A program made the translations under genes and the position numbers. 64,000 bases of DNA, taken from the NCBI GenBank assembly GCA_945882415.1, contig CAMCWC010000005.1:1-64000 (forward strand), read 5' to 3'. The stretch comes from Chthonomonas calidirosea (GTDB lineage Bacteria; Armatimonadota; Fimbriimonadia; Fimbriimonadales; Fimbriimonadaceae). The notes beneath the pieces were generated by a model that did no database searches, was not told where the DNA came from, and saw only the letters and a program-made list of their open reading frames with translations. Numbering within the stretch: the stretch's first letter is position 1; the number at the start of each line of letters is the position of its first letter. Positions 1 through 8,694 of this stretch are shown here, piece by piece.

Positions 1-422
1 TGCCGAACCTTCTCCAGCCCCGGCTGCACGCTCAACTGGTTCGCATCCGCCAACCGCACCGCTGAAGCCGCATACCGCGAGTGCAGCGCCACTAGCGTGC
101 CGTAAGCCGAAACCTCCTCCGGCTCCGTCAAAAGGTCCGCCATCCGCGCGATGTCGTCCGAAGACCGCGAGGCGTTCGACTGAACCATCCCCGCCCCGCG
201 AACCGTGTCGCCGCGCAAAATTGTCTCGAACCCCAGCCGCTGCTCTCGCATCGCCGATTCCAAATCCTGCGTCGCCAAAATGGTCGGATAGTTCAGGCTC
301 AAAACCCGGTCGATCGAACCGCGAAGCGAAATGAAGCTGAGAACGGCACCGCTAAGAATCAGGCCGACCAAAAGAACCAGCGACAAATGGCTGATCAAAA
401 GCTGGATGCGAAGGCTTCGCAC
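1..422 (-). CDS. Sensor histidine kinase, N-terminal part (truncated by window edge)
   Basis: Reading the complement from a GTG at 422 gives about 140 residues that run off the window without a stop. An in-frame stop lies just upstream, so this GTG is the only likely start. The N-terminus has a basic start (RSLRIQ) and a hydrophobic segment at about residues 7-30, then a helical region with the phrase IDRVLSLNYPTI. Such an N-terminus is typical of membrane sensor kinases with a four-helix extracytoplasmic sensor, followed by HAMP and HisKA/HATPase domains. Those domains would lie outside the window, so the kinase call is an inference; a methyl-accepting chemotaxis protein is an alternative. 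It is divergent from the thiol-redoxin gene at 480. Confidence 0.55.
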   Translation of the reverse strand, partial: MRSLRIQLLISHLSLVLLVGLILSGAVLSFISLRGSIDRVLSLNYPTILATQDLESAMREQRLGFETILRGDTVRGAGMVQSNASRSSDDIARMADLLTEPEEVSAYGTLVALHSRYAASAVRLADANQLSVQPGLEKVR

Positions 423-467
423 CCTCGCATTGTGTCACCTGGCCCAAATGCCCGCCGGGAAACAAAT

Positions 468-473
468 CATAAT
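468..473 (+). promoter_or_regulatory. Putative -10 hexamer (CATAAT) for the redoxin gene
   Basis: CATAAT ends six bases before the GTG at 480, so transcription would start at or next to the start codon and give a leaderless message. No matching -35 box is evident. Confidence 0.35.
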
Positions 474-479
474 TAAGAG

Positions 480-1139
480 GTGACGATCAAGTTCTTGCTT
501 CTCACGGCGGCCGGCGCCCTCGCTACCGGAGGCGCCCTCATGGCCTACCTCAGCACCCGGCCCGTGGTCGTGAACGAAGCCATCGTCAGCTCCGAACCCC
601 GCCACCCCGTCACCTCGGAGATGAACAAGTTCACCGCCGAGCGAAAGCTGAAAGACGCCCCAAAGTTTGAGCGCACCGCTGCCTTTGGCGAAAAAATCAA
701 AATCGCCGATGCCCAAAACGAGAAGCCGCAGTTCGTCATGTTCATCAAAGACGGCTGCCCCTGCAGCATCGAAGTCGAACCCCTCTTCCACGATCTCAAC
801 AAGGTCTATGGCAAGCGCATCGACTTCGTCGGAGTCATCGACGTCGCCGAAACCAAAGCCAAGCAGTGGCACACCGACATGCTCATGCCGTACCCCGTAA
901 TTGCGGACGAGCAGCAAGAAATCATCCAGGCCTACGGAATCAAAAACTCCGCCTTCAGCGCCCTGGTGAGCCAAGACGGAAAGATCGTAAAGATGTGGCC
1001 CGGCTATTCGAAGTCGATTCTGAAGGAAATGAACGAGACCTTCGCCAAAGAAGTCGGCCTGAAAGCCAAACCCTTCGACCCCAAATACGCCCCCGAACGC
1101 GCCACCTCCGGCTGCCAGTTCACCCTCGAAAAGGCTTAA
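480..1139 (+). CDS. Membrane-anchored thioredoxin-like redox protein
   Basis: The protein has 219 residues with a single N-terminal hydrophobic segment at about residues 4-23 (FLLLTAAGALATGGALMAYL), so it should be tethered to the inner membrane facing the periplasm. The rest resembles the AhpC/TSA-redoxin branch of the thioredoxin fold. A GCPC motif with Cys93 and Cys95 follows the strand FVMFIKD, where the redox cysteines normally sit; the spacing is C-P-C rather than the usual CxxC. Later there is the cis-Pro-like MPYPVIAD and a strand ALVSQDGKIV. The start is a GTG whose AAGAGG lies too close to act as a normal ribosome-binding site. The substrate is unknown. The gene converges on the lipoprotein gene with a 4-bp overlap. 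Confidence 0.65.
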   Translation: MTIKFLLLTAAGALATGGALMAYLSTRPVVVNEAIVSSEPRHPVTSEMNKFTAERKLKDAPKFERTAAFGEKIKIADAQNEKPQFVMFIKDGCPCSIEVEPLFHDLNKVYGKRIDFVGVIDVAETKAKQWHTDMLMPYPVIADEQQEIIQAYGIKNSAFSALVSQDGKIVKMWPGYSKSILKEMNETFAKEVGLKAKPFDPKYAPERATSGCQFTLEKA

Positions 1140-1531
1140 CCCTTTCCGACTTCAATCTCGGAGCTTAGGAGCTGCTTCGCGCCCCGCTTCTTCATCTCCT
1201 GCCGCATCAACTTCTCGGCGCGGTCCTTCAGCACCTTGTCGTCCACCCGCCCCGAAATCGTGACGACCTTGTCCGTCACCCGCAAATCCAAAACCGCCCC
1301 CGGCCCACTTAAGACGGGGTCTGCCAGCAGGGCTTCGTTGAGTTTGCTGAGCAGATCGACTTGCTTCAGCGCCGGATTAGCCTTAACCGGGTCTTCCCGA
1401 GCAATGACCGGCGGGTCGCCTTTCCGCTCTGGGGCGGAATTGGGGGCGGTCGGGGCGCAGCCAAAGGCGAGCAAGCTGAGCAACGTGACGAAGAGTGTGT
1501 GGCGGGTCAAGTTCGCTTCAGGATGTGGCAT
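1136..1531 (-). CDS. Small lipoprotein with BON-like domain
   Basis: A 131-residue protein. Residues about 10-25 form a signal peptide ending in a lipobox (LLAFGC), so Cys25 is probably lipidated. The mature part has a low-complexity linker and a C-terminal stretch from about residue 58 (LNEALLADPVL, then LRVTDKVVTISGRV and ending VLKDRAEKLM). This has the alternating helix-strand pattern of BON domains, which are thought to bind membranes or carbohydrates. The BON call rests on the xVxxxVVTxxGxV pattern and is moderate. Its 3' end overlaps the redoxin gene on the opposite strand. Confidence 0.6.
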   Translation of the reverse strand: MPHPEANLTRHTLFVTLLSLLAFGCAPTAPNSAPERKGDPPVIAREDPVKANPALKQVDLLSKLNEALLADPVLSGPGAVLDLRVTDKVVTISGRVDDKVLKDRAEKLMRQEMKKRGAKQLLSSEIEVGKG

Positions 1532-2120: not shown

Positions 2121-2555
2121 CTATGGTTTGGTAAGTACTTTCAATGGCACCAGTCTATAAGACTTTATGTTCAGTACGGTGGTGCAATCGGCTCGATCTT
2201 TAGGTTTTAGCCTGGGATACAACCGTTCACCAGTCCTTGAATCAATCGTAATCATCCCACCCAAGTTGCCGAGTAAGGGGATCTCCCGCTCGTAAAAAGA
2301 GACCTGTCGTTTACCAGAAGTTCTCTTCCATTGATCTCCTAGTGCTTTGTTTACAGCACCGTCGACCTGATCAAATCCTTCGACGAAACATATTGTGGTG
2401 TCCTCTATATTGCCATCACCGTTGAAGCTCTGCAAGAACGTCGGACTAAAGGGAAGTCTAAGCTCTACCCGATAGGATAGTACTTTGTATAGTAGCGCTG
2501 CTGTTGAAACCGTGATCACTGCAACCCCTATCCAAATCCGCTTGTCGTGTCTCAT
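2121..2555 (-). CDS. Candidate Rhs immunity protein, membrane-anchored, unknown family
   Basis: A 144-residue protein starting at ATG 2555. I chose this start because it overlaps the TAA stop of the Rhs gene as TAATG, a coupling typical of toxin-immunity pairs; the frame extends 23 codons further upstream, inside the Rhs gene. The N-terminus is basic (MRHDKR) followed by a transmembrane segment at about residues 8-24 (IGVAVITVSTAALLYKV). The remainder is soluble with no family I recognise. Position directly after a polymorphic Rhs tip is the only functional evidence: such genes usually encode the cognate immunity protein. An N-terminal membrane anchor would suit neutralising a toxin that acts in or enters through the inner membrane. 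Composition matches the toxin tip rather than the core genome. Confidence 0.5.
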   Translation of the reverse strand: MRHDKRIWIGVAVITVSTAALLYKVLSYRVELRLPFSPTFLQSFNGDGNIEDTTICFVEGFDQVDGAVNKALGDQWKRTSGKRQVSFYEREIPLLGNLGGMITIDSRTGERLYPRLKPKDRADCTTVLNIKSYRLVPLKVLTKP

Positions 2556-3841
2556 TATGCTCCGTCGTATGGATCCATTTCGATCCCGCATTTTACTGCA
2601 CTTGCATACGCCTTCAACATACATTTATCGTATGCCAGTAAGTTCCAATTTGATTCGAACTGGCACTTGCAGACATCAGCTATATAATTCGCGTGGCACT
2701 TTGCTAGATCATCGTTACCACAGCCGGGATCGAGAAAGGGCGTCTGATTACTGGTAGAGCCGGATACGCAACCGATATAGGCACATAGATTCTTCTGTAG
2801 ACCCTTTCTGTATTTCTTGTAGCACTTCTTTATTGCGCGTTGATCATGCCCAGCTTTCCTTAGGCAAACAAGCAGACTCGAGTTCGCTTTATCGGAAGGA
2901 CCAAGTAGGTCGGTGCAAGGCGTTGGGACAGGATTACCATTACCGTCACAACATCGTGGTTCTGGACATGAACAATTGGCGGTCATGCCATTGAAGTCAA
3001 TCGAGCCTATCGGTGCAGAGTTCCCGTAGACATACTGGTTTTCCCCCGGCCACAACGGATCAACCGAATACCACCTGCCTGTAACCGGATCGAACACCCT
3101 CGCTCGAACGTACAGTCTCCGCGAAGTATCGAAATGGTAACCCCACGTGCCTACGTAACCCCATGAAGTATCGTTAACACCGACCGAGTCTTGAATCTCG
3201 CCATACGGCCAGTACTCCGCATCGTAGATTTGGTTGCCGCTCGCGTCCAGAATCTTAACCACCAAACCCAGCGGATCCGGCACCAGCAACGATTCGCTGC
3301 CGGCGGTCTCAGAATCCAAAATCTGAGCGCGAACAGTACTAAAGGTAGTCACCTCGCTCGGAGTTCGCGATTGCAAATAGTCGTTGCCGTCCCAAACAAA
3401 GGTCGTCCGCGTACCTCCGACCTCTAAGAACCGACGCATGCCATCTGCCCAATACGCCAAAGTAGACCGAGCCCCGCCCGGATCAATCGCCGTCCGCATC
3501 CGGTTCTCATAGTCATACGCCATCGTCGTACGGCTTCCCCCGGCATTTGCTGCCGTCTGGTTCCCGTTGGCATCAAAGGTGTAAGTAGAAACCACCGCCC
3601 CCTCAACCGAAGTCACCAACCGCGACCCCGCGTTGTAAGTCATCGTCTCCGAACTCGACCCGGCCCCGACCCCGGTAGGGGTCAAAGAAGGTAGCCAGGC
3701 ATTGAAAATGCCTGGAGAGCCAACCCGACCCGCAAAAGTCCAAGTCGCCCCGCGACCCCCGCGCGAACTGAAACCACCGACCACACCAACATTGTAAGGC
3801 AGTTTTGCTCGCCTTGACGGACAATTTTTCAGAAGATTCAC
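2555..3841 (-). CDS. 5'-truncated Rhs-family protein with cysteine-rich toxin tip
   Basis: The 428-residue frame holds only the last part of an Rhs/YD-repeat protein. YD-like units (YTFDANGNQ, MAYDYENRM) occupy about residues 75-150. The RHS-repeat-associated core (YWPYGE, LYVRARVFDPVTGRWYSVDP, YVYGNSAP) ends with IDFNG near residue 283. Full Rhs proteins exceed 1000 residues. About 144 residues after the core form the variable tip, which carries some 16 cysteines (NCSC, RCC, VCKC) and matches no toxin family I know. The first 60 or so residues are not Rhs: they are translated from a palindromic repeat (3667-3741) that abuts the Rhs homology. No signal peptide or secretion domain remains, so this is likely an orphan tip that is silent or available for recombination with a full-length rhs elsewhere. 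Confidence 0.7.
   Translation of the reverse strand: MNLLKNCPSRRAKLPYNVGVVGGFSSRGGRGATWTFAGRVGSPGIFNAWLPSLTPTGVGAGSSSETMTYNAGSRLVTSVEGAVVSTYTFDANGNQTAANAGGSRTTMAYDYENRMRTAIDPGGARSTLAYWADGMRRFLEVGGTRTTFVWDGNDYLQSRTPSEVTTFSTVRAQILDSETAGSESLLVPDPLGLVVKILDASGNQIYDAEYWPYGEIQDSVGVNDTSWGYVGTWGYHFDTSRRLYVRARVFDPVTGRWYSVDPLWPGENQYVYGNSAPIGSIDFNGMTANCSCPEPRCCDGNGNPVPTPCTDLLGPSDKANSSLLVCLRKAGHDQRAIKKCYKKYRKGLQKNLCAYIGCVSGSTSNQTPFLDPGCGNDDLAKCHANYIADVCKCQFESNWNLLAYDKCMLKAYASAVKCGIEMDPYDGA
3667..3741. repeat. Dispersed palindromic repeat, copy 1 (inside the Rhs frame)
   Basis: This 75-bp block matches 8483-8557 at 73 of 75 positions by eye. It contains two perfect inverted repeats: GACCCC-GGTA-GGGGTC at 3668-3683 and CCAGGCATT-GAA-AATGCCTGG at 3695-3715. 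Two hairpins in a short dispersed unit resemble REP/BIME-type elements. It forms the 5' boundary of the remaining Rhs homology. Confidence 0.8.
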
Positions 3842-4031: not shown

Positions 4032-7000
4032 CTAGTTGCCGCTATTGGAGTTTACGCGGGCAATTGACTGCTGCAAGCGGGCGAGTATCCTCGGCCCGCG
4101 TCTTCGAAGTCCTAACAAGGGCATCATTTCATCGATGATATCATTGCTGGTTCTCAGAAGCTGATCGGACAGAATCCAGCGTACTAGAGCATCAAGTTCA
4201 CCATCATGATAGTAGGTGATATCGCCCATCGGTTCGACTGGCGAGTCCGTCGGAACTCTGGTTGTGCGGCTGATCTGATTATTCAAGGACTTTGGCGTGG
4301 ACAAGGTGATTTCTGGAGCTACTGGAGCGTCAAACAGGCCGCCGAGGTTCTGGGAAATCTTGCTTTCTCTCACGCTACGTTCATCAAAAGCTTTAACCGC
4401 TTGTTCCCACGCGTTGACCGCGCGATTCATCTCTGCCTCCCGGTGCAAAAACCAATCTGTACTCCAAATGCGATGGAAGCGCCAACCGATCGCTTCCAAG
4501 ATTTGTTGGCGAAGTCGATCCCGGTCTCGCGCCGTTGGTGCAGAGTGGTACGAGGCACCGTCACACTCTATGGCCAACACGAACTGCCCGGAGCGTTCCG
4601 GGTGTAACGCCGCGAAGTCCAGCCGATAGCCGGATGCTCCGTATTGCGGGATGAGAGGGATTCCACGAGCCTGGAGAGCGTCAAAGATGTCAGCCTCAAA
4701 GGAATTCATTCCGATACCTGACGCACCCTTATCACCGAGATTGGTTCCACCGGACGAGGCAAACTGTAGATACAACCGAAGCAACTCAACGCCCTTCTTG
4801 TCAGATCGACGCGGGTCCATGTCTGCGTGCGAAAACGAGGAGACGATCTTTATGCTTCGCCTGGCGCGAGATACGGCAACGTTTAGCCTGCGCTCCCCGC
4901 CCTGTTGAAGTAACGGGCCGAAACGATACGGTAATTTCCCATTTCGATCCTTTGAGTAGCCTACGGAAAGAATGATTGCATCGCGCTCATCACCTTGAAC
5001 TCGCTCTAAGTTCTTGAGAAAGAACCATGGATTGTCTTTGCCGGTGTCCAGAAAGTCTGCTAGGTGTCGCCTAGTCTCGAGTGCCTGATCGAGCGCGGCC
5101 TCTATGCGGTGCGCATGCTTAATACCTAGCGTGATTACACCCAATGACTCGCGTCGGCTCTCAGGTTCGAGTTGAAGTTGGGCTTCCGCATGTTCGATTA
5201 CAAGCCGAACAACCTCCACAACCTCTGCACTACTACTTTCCTCTTCGCCGTCTCGAGGGACCGAATCCACCAAGATGTGAGAGATGCAGTCTATGCCTCC
5301 GATTCCGGGAAAAGTAGTGAGTCGATCTCCGTAAATATGTCGATTTGAGAACGCAATCAGACGTTCGTCGCGACTTCGGTAGTGCCAATCTAGTGACCAT
5401 GGCTGGATGAACGTAGACATCTGATCTAGCAGGCTCTCGTAACCTGAAGTGGGTGCTTCCTCGTCTTCCTCACTCGCCCCATCGGCGAAGAACGAAGTTG
5501 GTGGTAGCTGGTGTCGATCGCCCGCCACGACGAGCTTTGCGCCACGGAGTATTGAACACACCGCATCCTCTGGAAGAACCTGGCTGGCCTCATCAAACAC
5601 CACGACATCGAAGTACTGTCTATCTGCAGGGAGCAGTTGACTTACGTTTAGTGGGCTAGACATCCAACATGGGCAGACTGCCGTTAGAACATCGGCGGAG
5701 CGCTCGACGAGTTTCCGTAGCGACATGTGCCTCGAACGTTTCAGGCTCTCGGCCCGAACATGGCTAGCTTGTTCTGGGTGCTCTTCCATTGCTGCAGTTG
5801 CACTCTCAGCGTGTAACCGACGGACACTTTCCACGGCTACTTTAAGGCGGTCACGATCAAGGTATCGAAACTCGTCAACGAATTGCGAATGGGTTTCACC
5901 TTTGAATGCGGCAACGGACGGCATGGCAATTCGGGCCTCGTCATAGCAGGATGAAAGGTAGGCATGACTAAACATCGCTTTCCAATCTTGAGCCGGCGGT
6001 TTTTCGTCCCGAATCTCTGAAATGAACCTAACAAGACCTAACTCCATTAACCTGGCTTCAATTCGTCTCACGGTCGGGATTTGGTGAGCTGAGGATTCGT
6101 CCTCCGCCAAGCCTGAGCAGAGCGTAGCTAAGCGCTCGATCGGCAAGACATGCAGATTCGGGAACGCATGACGGAGTACATTGAGATCCTCCCCAACTTT
6201 AGCAAGTGCTCCTAAAGCTGCGTCAGCGAAATTAACTGCAGATGGGTCGGCAGCAGAAGTACCTAGCAAAGCGGTCCGCCGAGTGAAAAGCGCTTCAGCT
6301 TCGCGGGCTCCGGCGAGCAGCGCAATTGGTTTGATTGCAGCGTTCTTGCTGAGGTCCCGCATTCTTTTCTTAGCGGCACGGAATTGTTTATTAGACAATG
6401 TCGCCCAGAGTATTGGTAGCGGGCCCTGTTCCAACGGTAATAAGTCGTAAGAAAGTTTTCCTTGTTGCAACGCTTCAGCCTGCCACCGACCTAGAAAGGC
6501 CTGAACATCCTTAATTAGCGTCAGAATATCGTTGGCTTCTCCTAGAGTATTGGGCTTTGGAAATCCTGCCTTTGTAGACAGTTGTTCTAAGTGACGACTT
6601 ACTTCGGGGAAGTGCTCTCTTGCGAGTCGCGCAGCGGCATCACATGCGTTTTGTACAGCTTGTCCGTCAGTCAGGCTCGCTTCGGTCCACGGTGAAGAGT
6701 CGGCGTGCAAAAAGAGCGAAGAGTAAGCCGACGCCTCGGTGAGAAGATCGTGTGCTTCCGCAACTGTTTCGCGGTTTATGCTTGCTAGCTCTTGGGCGCG
6801 CCATCGCGTCCTAGAACTCGCCTTAGCCGCGACCTCTACAATCCTTGACTGAAGCTCAAATGCACTCCAACCGGAAGGAGGGACTGGTGCGTGCATGTCC
6901 CGAGAATGAGCGACGACTCTCATTCTTCTATCCTCAAACTTCTTGTGAAGCTCAGCATTGTCTGGAACGGCAGAGTGACGAATTAGTTCCAAGGTTGCCG

Positions 7001-8099
7001 ACACCTTTTGCATTACCGCCTTCTGCGAGATGCCTGCTCCATGCAGGTCAAGTGCAACGTGACCCAGTCCTACCGCTTCAAGCCGTTTGTAAACAGCTTC
7101 CAAGGCTGCCCGTTTTTCTGCTACAAAAAGAACGCGTTTTCCCGTTGCAATAAGCGTGGTAATGATATTCGCGATCGTCTGAGATTTGCCGCATCCTGGT
7201 GGGCCTTGGATGACACCGTTACAATCTTTGGCCACCGCATGCACTGCGGCCTGCTGGCTGGAATCGGCATCCAAGACCATAAATTCCTTTTCAGCTGGAA
7301 TGGTGTCTAGCGTTGCAGGGTCAATGATGGCTCGACTTGCGCCGACCGATTGGCGGGAACGTTCGTCACCAGAAAGTGCGGCTATGATGTCGTGATCGGT
7401 AAAACCCTGTGCGCACTCCTTAAGGTCTATAATCATGGACAGCTTTTGAAAAGAAAAGTTACCAATCACTGCCTTCGAGCTGACCTCAAACCCTCTGATG
7501 GATGCGGCTAGATGTGCTAGCTTTTCCATAATCTGCGGTGCAACAAACTCTTCCAGCTCGGTGGAGTCAAGCAGATCAGTATCTGAAAGCTCTAACTGGT
7601 GGTCCTCTGCTAGTGCGTGCAGTAAAGCGATGTTAACTTGAGGTGAGCCTACTGCTAACAATCGCAGCGAATCTGAATCGGTGCGTTTGCCCTCAACCGC
7701 GATAGGCAGTAGAACAATAGCAGCTTCAGGTGGTCGGCCCCCGTCAGCTACCGGCCATGTGGCCATTCCGTATGCCAGAAAAAGTGTTTGAAGCCCGCGT
7801 TCCTCAAGATTTGACTGAGCCTTGCGAACGATATTTTTTAGCTTTGCTCCTGCCTTAGAATCAATCTCGGGGGACACGAGGCGCGAAAGCAAAACTTTCT
7901 CGCCGCTGAATAAATCCTCGATAGCACTTTCTTCAGCGGCTGAAAGGTCAAGAGTTCCAGCTTGCAAACTCCGAAAGTAGAGAAGATTGTTTCTCCTGGT
8001 CGTGTCCATCAAGCGACGTATCCATACACCTCGGGCGGCGTCAACCAACTGTGTGCGCAATGGGTCGCTCAGCATTGAATTCTGGTTCTGCTCTTCCAT
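4032..8099 (-). CDS. DUF4011-type SF1 helicase fused to Vsr/MTES_1575-like endonuclease
   Basis: A 1355-residue multidomain protein. The N-terminus carries a DUF4011-like motif (RRLMDTTRRNNLLYF, residues about 28-42). An SF1/UPF1-like helicase core follows with Walker A GPPGCGKSQT near residue 298, Walker B VVVFDEASQ near 833 and motif VI NVAVSRARRS near 1065. After the helicase comes a PD-(D/E)xK endonuclease of the Vsr/MTES_1575 type: YRLDFAA, then LAIECDGASYHS near 1175, then RDRDRLR and GWRFHRIWSTDWF. The last 60 residues look like the small DUF3320-type C-terminal domain. All catalytic motifs appear intact. Members of this architecture are often found in defence islands, and the Rhs neighbour and tRNA-proximal location fit a phage-defence role, but that is inference. 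The GC content is lower than in the core genes, which suggests horizontal transfer. It appears to be a single-gene unit. Confidence 0.8.
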   Translation of the reverse strand: MEEQNQNSMLSDPLRTQLVDAARGVWIRRLMDTTRRNNLLYFRSLQAGTLDLSAAEESAIEDLFSGEKVLLSRLVSPEIDSKAGAKLKNIVRKAQSNLEERGLQTLFLAYGMATWPVADGGRPPEAAIVLLPIAVEGKRTDSDSLRLLAVGSPQVNIALLHALAEDHQLELSDTDLLDSTELEEFVAPQIMEKLAHLAASIRGFEVSSKAVIGNFSFQKLSMIIDLKECAQGFTDHDIIAALSGDERSRQSVGASRAIIDPATLDTIPAEKEFMVLDADSSQQAAVHAVAKDCNGVIQGPPGCGKSQTIANIITTLIATGKRVLFVAEKRAALEAVYKRLEAVGLGHVALDLHGAGISQKAVMQKVSATLELIRHSAVPDNAELHKKFEDRRMRVVAHSRDMHAPVPPSGWSAFELQSRIVEVAAKASSRTRWRAQELASINRETVAEAHDLLTEASAYSSLFLHADSSPWTEASLTDGQAVQNACDAAARLAREHFPEVSRHLEQLSTKAGFPKPNTLGEANDILTLIKDVQAFLGRWQAEALQQGKLSYDLLPLEQGPLPILWATLSNKQFRAAKKRMRDLSKNAAIKPIALLAGAREAEALFTRRTALLGTSAADPSAVNFADAALGALAKVGEDLNVLRHAFPNLHVLPIERLATLCSGLAEDESSAHQIPTVRRIEARLMELGLVRFISEIRDEKPPAQDWKAMFSHAYLSSCYDEARIAMPSVAAFKGETHSQFVDEFRYLDRDRLKVAVESVRRLHAESATAAMEEHPEQASHVRAESLKRSRHMSLRKLVERSADVLTAVCPCWMSSPLNVSQLLPADRQYFDVVVFDEASQVLPEDAVCSILRGAKLVVAGDRHQLPPTSFFADGASEEDEEAPTSGYESLLDQMSTFIQPWSLDWHYRSRDERLIAFSNRHIYGDRLTTFPGIGGIDCISHILVDSVPRDGEEESSSAEVVEVVRLVIEHAEAQLQLEPESRRESLGVITLGIKHAHRIEAALDQALETRRHLADFLDTGKDNPWFFLKNLERVQGDERDAIILSVGYSKDRNGKLPYRFGPLLQQGGERRLNVAVSRARRSIKIVSSFSHADMDPRRSDKKGVELLRLYLQFASSGGTNLGDKGASGIGMNSFEADIFDALQARGIPLIPQYGASGYRLDFAALHPERSGQFVLAIECDGASYHSAPTARDRDRLRQQILEAIGWRFHRIWSTDWFLHREAEMNRAVNAWEQAVKAFDERSVRESKISQNLGGLFDAPVAPEITLSTPKSLNNQISRTTRVPTDSPVEPMGDITYYHDGELDALVRWILSDQLLRTSNDIIDEMMPLLGLRRRGPRILARLQQSIARVNSNSGN

Positions 8100-8444: not shown

Positions 8445-8482
8445 ACCGCACAGCCAAAACTCGAACGAAAGCCCAAATCTCC

Positions 8483-8557
8483 CGACCCCGGTAGGGGTCA
8501 AAGAAGGTAGCCAGGCATTGCAAATGCCTGGAGAGCCAACCCGCCCCGCAAAAGTCC
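8483..8557. repeat. Dispersed palindromic repeat, copy 2
   Basis: The second copy of the element at 3667-3741. Its two hairpins are GACCCC-GGTA-GGGGTC (8484-8499) and CCAGGCATT-GCA-AATGCCTGG (8511-8531). It runs directly into direct repeat unit B, so here the element is part of a larger composite repeat. Confidence 0.8.
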
Positions 8558-8694
8558 GAGGAGCAAAGCGACCCCCGCGCGGCCACAAACCCCCACCACC
8601 CCCACCGTCGTAGCGCACCCCCGATCAACAAAAGAGCCGCATCGTCCCCAAAACAAACTCGAACCCCCGAACAAACCCGAACAAACCCGAACCC
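8553..8694. repeat. Direct repeat unit B (about 140 bp) ending in an AACAAACCCG array
   Basis: A diverged copy of unit A. The terminal array at 8652-8694 reads AACAAACTCG, AACCCCCG, AACAAACCCG, AACAAACCCG, AACCC. A related short array lies at 23573-23607. Confidence 0.75.

Follow-up and report, generated by a model that had tools for sequence, protein, structure and literature searches.

A truncated Rhs gene with a cysteine-rich candidate toxin tip and its apparently undescribed lineage in Armatimonadota

Rhs Toxins and Related Systems

The closest described systems are the Rhs polymorphic toxins and orphan rhs-CT modules (PMC3150448, PMC3967940, PMC7043789), with which the locus analyzed here shares a common core, a hypervariable tip, an adjacent immunity candidate and an N-truncated orphan. 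Unlike the known Rhs toxins, its lineage is restricted to cysteine-rich tips, mostly with an odd number of cysteines; most relatives have a NifU-like gene upstream, many are encoded by two ORFs, and the type VI secretion system (T6SS) sheath gene is absent from the ten genomes checked.

A second point of comparison is the ABC/Tc toxin of Yersinia entomophaga, in which the Rhs shell consists of separate polypeptides and a shared shell can package a toxin subunit encoded at an orphan locus (PMC11067744). The likeness to the B and C components, an Rhs shell in two parts of which the second bears the variable toxin, is found in about 30 loci related to the one described here. However, the second ORF of these relatives comprises only about 130 aa of core plus the tip, an immunity-type gene comes next as a rule, and the gene described here is not in two parts but comes from a fused sub-lineage. 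A scan of one shell and one full-length protein found no Tc domains beyond the Rhs/YD repeats. The periplasmic T6SS effectors Ssp2 and Ssp4 depend on DsbA of the target cell (PMC5792426) and offer a functional analogy: they are activated by oxidation in the target envelope but, unlike the present lineage, are delivered by a T6SS.

The Truncated Gene and Its Tip

The window (the whole stretch of 64,000 nucleotides that was analyzed) forms the start of contig C5 in a genome of 3.36 Mb. The features of the locus are as follows.

2555-3841, reverse strand: Rhs ORF of 428 aa in three parts (repeat-derived 5′ part, C-terminal core, tip)
3662..3841, reverse strand: non-Rhs 5′ part of the ORF, mostly a dispersed repeat with copies elsewhere; marks the truncation junction
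2987..3661, reverse strand: C-terminal Rhs core fragment, residues 61-285 (225 aa), ending IDFNG
2558..2986, reverse strand: cysteine-rich tip, candidate toxin domain, residues 286-428 (143 aa), 15 cysteines
2121..2555, reverse strand: immunity candidate, 144 aa, one N-terminal transmembrane segment, TAATG-coupled to the tip
12..1468, reverse strand: conserved downstream flank, 92% DNA identity to positions 6440-7897 of the sister locus (L215)

An earlier sequence-only reading had described an Rhs core ending IDFNG, and the TIGR03696 profile indeed matches residues 210-286 of the ORF (E 1e-10). A core with a DPxG-type boundary, ending here in IDFNG, agrees with the orphan form of the Rhs polymorphic toxins. 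That reading was also right about a distinct tip after the core (143 residues, given there as about 144), about the cysteine clusters NCSC, RCC and VCKC, and about the next ORF, which overlaps as TAATG and begins with a hydrophobic segment; the tip holds 15 cysteines, however, and not the 16 it had counted. Genuine Rhs sequence begins near residue 61, the first 60 or so codons being unrelated to Rhs. Residues ~10-60 correspond to a genome repeat that recurs at 8478-8615 of the window and on contigs C9, C21 and C33; the copy at 3665-3765 is 92% identical in DNA to 8481-8581 over 101 bp. Directly upstream of the truncated gene, positions 4032-8099 on the reverse strand encode a 1355-aa protein with a DUF4011/AAA helicase and an MTES_1575 nuclease domain, a candidate anti-phage defense gene by its PADLOC PDC-S37 match (E 4e-280).

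The tip had been placed outside the known toxin families, and neither Pfam, NCBIfam, PADLOC nor PHROGs profiles give a convincing match to it; the protein encoded at 2121-2555 matches nothing in Pfam, NCBIfam or PADLOC. The HMM and structure-prediction search proposed in the earlier reading likewise returned no family or fold for the tip. The AlphaFold model is weak and almost all-helical, with a pLDDT of 52 alone and 59 with a three-sequence input (the tips of the window, L215 and L292), and Foldseek found no fold match with it (best E 1.2). Searches for tip homologues among the genome contigs and plasmids gave none. Several weaker matches were rejected: PDB sequence matches of the tip to PPR designs and CagY, judged compositional; phylum-wide matches to the tip alone, which are short, often contain stops and in one inspected case lie antisense to another gene; and the weak matches of the 2121-2555 protein, the best of which falls in unrelated genes. 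The earlier suggestion of a possibly new disulfide-rich toxin family agrees with this lack of a known family, while the disulfides and the toxicity are predicted properties.

The Same Locus in a Sister Species

Three diverged relatives of the tip, with 15, 15 and 17 cysteines, emerged in the same bacterial family once the tips of related cores were gathered. The tip from genome G014 (contig C4) is 30% identical over 93 aa (E 2e-5) and that from G042 (contig C3) 32% identical over 66 aa (E 1e-6), the two being 59% identical to each other; the third, from G046 (contig C13), was found by profile (E 1.5e-15). The G014 and G042 tips form the ends of full-length Rhs ORFs, 1349 and 1513 aa long, and a lipoprotein-like ORF comes after each.

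G014 represents a sister species, and its full-length gene occupies the place orthologous to that of the window gene: the downstream flank, which by its domains includes a BON-domain lipoprotein gene (1136-1531) and a thioredoxin-like gene (480-1139) on the forward strand, is conserved, and the two loci are therefore the same. The core DNA is 84.6% identical between them, with similarity ending at 3646, whereas the tip and immunity DNA does not align. The tip is thus variable at this locus while core and flanks are conserved. Since flank and core align with a full-length sister gene and tip and immunity do not, the window copy is, by these alignments, an N-truncated allele of a putative polymorphic toxin-immunity locus. 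The N-terminal delivery part is missing, 225 aa of core being left against the 1349-aa sister gene. The label of an orphan tip accordingly holds as regards truncation, but the gene is the counterpart of a full-length gene in the sister species.

With most of the shell gone, it is doubtful that the window copy itself is delivered; it may be inert, and it may have been kept as a store of tip and immunity sequence or as a relic. The most serious alternative to a working gene, which concerns the activity of this copy and not the nature of its tip, is a decaying relic: an insertion or rearrangement would have taken the shell, tip and immunity would not yet have eroded, and the ORF would be undelivered or untranslated. 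The lost shell, the dispersed repeat at the 5′ end of the ORF and the full-length sister gene at the same locus fit decay, as do three further cores of the same lineage in the window genome, with different cysteine-rich tips; the window core is 82-83% identical to two other cores in that genome. However, the tip and immunity ORFs are intact and retain their stop-start overlap, and functional orphan Rhs tips have been reported in Salmonella (PMC3967940, PMC7043789). A relic is thus a substantial possibility that falls somewhat short of probable.

A Lineage with Cysteine-Rich Tips

Cysteine makes up 10.5% of the residues of the window tip, far above chance. For the tips of other Rhs cores, sampled as the best TIGR03696 matches in this genome and its relatives, the median is 1 cysteine, and at least 8 are present in 4 of 143. 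The window core belongs to an apparently undescribed Armatimonadota Rhs lineage whose cysteine-rich tips fall into many unrelated families. In the discovery set, genomes of the family were searched with the core alone and tips of at least 60 aa were read; all 35 have at least 8 cysteines (median 13). Four non-lineage control tips of the window genome, all lacking cysteine, were left out of the lineage count. An independent search of 291 genomes of the phylum, made with an alignment of the N-terminal core region and no tip information, added 75 new tips, of which 67 contain at least 8 cysteines, giving 102 of 110 for both sets. These 110 tips form 75 BLAST groups, and the cysteines are a property of the core lineage as a whole. 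The earlier picture, in which a shortened Rhs gene is coupled to a candidate immunity gene for a membrane-anchored protein, is supported, but the cysteines are not a peculiarity of this tip. On a tree of 243 cores, cysteine-richness changes 9 times, compared with a mean of 79 in shuffles. Cysteine-rich tips also occur on three cores outside the main lineage, in another family of the phylum (L054, L082 and L097, genome G115); their survey-matched tips have 11, 11 and 13 cysteines, again odd numbers.

Among the lineage tips, one match, to DUF6973, lies above the Pfam cut-off, NAGPA-like and SprT/zincin-like matches lie below it, and PLA2-like and L,D-transpeptidase-like motifs were recognized by eye only. 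Judged by such matches, several tips resemble enzymes expected to act outside the cytoplasm.

Split Shells and Cassettes

In most lineage loci, shell and plug plus tip are encoded separately: about 30 encode Rhs as two ORFs and about 19 are fused. A conserved '..VWDGxDYLxE' motif precedes the end of the split shells; the second ORF starts between -11 and +26 nt from the shell end in 29 of 32 cases, 11 of these overlapping at -1 or -4. It consists of about 130 aa of core and the tip, normally followed by an immunity-type gene. No such constant start was seen by eye in short ORFs of other Rhs cores. Arrays of core, tip and immunity cassettes stand behind a separate shell gene at L218, L220, L260, L261, L265, L273, L278 and other loci. 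Truncated orphan tips had earlier been regarded as a donor reservoir; since many of the related short core-and-tip ORFs have their own start codons beside a separate shell gene, they are not necessarily a silent store of donor sequence. Because the window gene derives from the fused sub-lineage, the split loci do not show it working as a subunit.

Neighboring Genes and Delivery

Of 66 lineage shells, 56 have a NifU_N-like gene no more than 1.5 kb upstream; the NifU-like proteins share a single invariant cysteine. A further BLAST group is found upstream in 22 of 39 loci; its full-size members are about 1000 aa long, and one carries a family 2 glycosyltransferase domain. At L194 (from 815) and L195 (from 1074), both on the reverse strand, a small glycine-rich protein with few cysteines is encoded between the NifU-like and Rhs genes, and a serine-rich protein at L270 has a C-terminal end that resembles, by eye, a Hint domain.

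Inspection by eye revealed no obvious N-terminal signal peptide on the lineage shells, in contrast to four Rhs proteins from outside the lineage. Delivery by a T6SS was rejected, as the sheath gene VipB (PF05943) is absent from all ten genomes checked, the window genome (G000) and nine relatives; a phage-type sheath (PF04984) is present in 2 of the 10, G000 not among them. Genes for DsbA-like and VKOR proteins are present in the window genome. By simple hydropathy rules, the immunity proteins of non-transmembrane lineage tips are predicted to be exported in 46 of 67 cases, against 45 of 95 for other Rhs (p=0.01); for all tips the difference is not significant (55/82 vs. 79/137, p=0.2). The export bias of the lineage immunity proteins is thus modest.

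Odd Cysteine Counts

The number of cysteines is odd in 31 of the 35 discovery tips, a pattern noticed post hoc, and in 63 of the 75 independent tips, or 94 of 110 overall. Among the independent tips with at least 8 cysteines the proportion is 56/67 (p=2e-8), a binomial value that ignores relatedness; the count by BLAST group, about 62 of 75, is the fairer measure. An odd count implies that at least one cysteine stays outside the intra-tip disulfides. Candidate partners, offered as ideas only, are the shell cysteine in TPLGC, the invariant cysteine of the NifU-like protein, or a modification by the neighboring glycosyltransferase. The TPLGC cysteine is near-invariant (19 of 20 full-length cores and most shells). 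A core cysteine close to the tip was rejected as the cause, because parity is unrelated to the cysteines found over the final 230 residues of the core; total core cysteine counts vary among lineage cores, and no fixed position of the first or last cysteine was seen in the tips. Tips at L218, L252 and L225/L259 mostly have even counts, and at L218 the 1.5 kb upstream of the shell lacks any NifU-like gene. Such loci hint, post hoc, at a possible link between parity and neighboring genes.

Cysteines that bind a metal or an Fe-S cluster would fit the odd counts, which do not suit complete pairing, and the NifU_N-family gene upstream of so many shells could then load or chaperone the tips, possibly active in a reducing compartment. 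Yet the NifU-like proteins, with their one invariant cysteine, are unlike normal scaffolds, the unrelated tip families reveal no obvious common metal-site spacing, and some tips look like extracytoplasmic enzymes, which makes metal binding unlikely.

Proposed Mechanism

The reading we lean toward is that the window gene is a truncated allele at a polymorphic locus, drawn from a lineage dedicated to cysteine-rich tips, and that its tip would be an extracytoplasmic toxin folded by disulfides, paired with a membrane-anchored immunity protein. The cysteine bias, the kinds of enzyme that the tips resemble and the exported immunity candidates are most simply explained if the tips fold by forming disulfides outside the cytoplasm. 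A signal-less Rhs shell, either full-length or shell plus plug, would keep the tip unfolded and reduced. Once released, the tip would oxidize outside the cytoplasm, fold into a helical domain crosslinked by disulfides and act on a target in the envelope or outside the cell, while the downstream protein, anchored by its transmembrane segment, would shield the producer from the periplasmic side. That the tip is instead a cysteine-rich surface or structural domain, with the membrane protein as anchor or partner, draws on its lack of a toxin family match but is improbable, given the hypervariable lineage tips with changing neighbors and a fixed boundary, the resemblance of several to enzymes, and the swap of tip and immunity at one locus, as is typical of polymorphic toxins.

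A broader and rather doubtful extension of the disulfide-folded toxin reading is a T6SS-independent class of Rhs weapon, built from a signal-less shell and swappable plug-and-tip subunits. A partner would take up the one odd cysteine (the near-invariant cysteine of the shell, the NifU-like protein, or else glycosylation or another modification) and the others would form disulfides outside, placing the toxin under redox control; orphans at related loci would be subunits sharing one shell.

Significance

The literature searches gave no report of an Rhs lineage with cysteine-rich tips, of an odd-cysteine rule or of orphan tips as separate subunits, and the portion consulted of a large polymorphic-toxin survey (PMC3482391) mentions neither 'disulfide' nor 'cysteine-rich'. 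The findings suggest that one Rhs shell lineage can be specialized for a single cargo chemistry, cysteine-rich and probably dependent on oxidation, even though the tips belong to dozens of unrelated families. Orphan tips of this lineage may be subunits that are produced separately and can be exchanged, as opposed to silent DNA, and the odd-cysteine rule is a sharp clue to how the cargo is held or activated.
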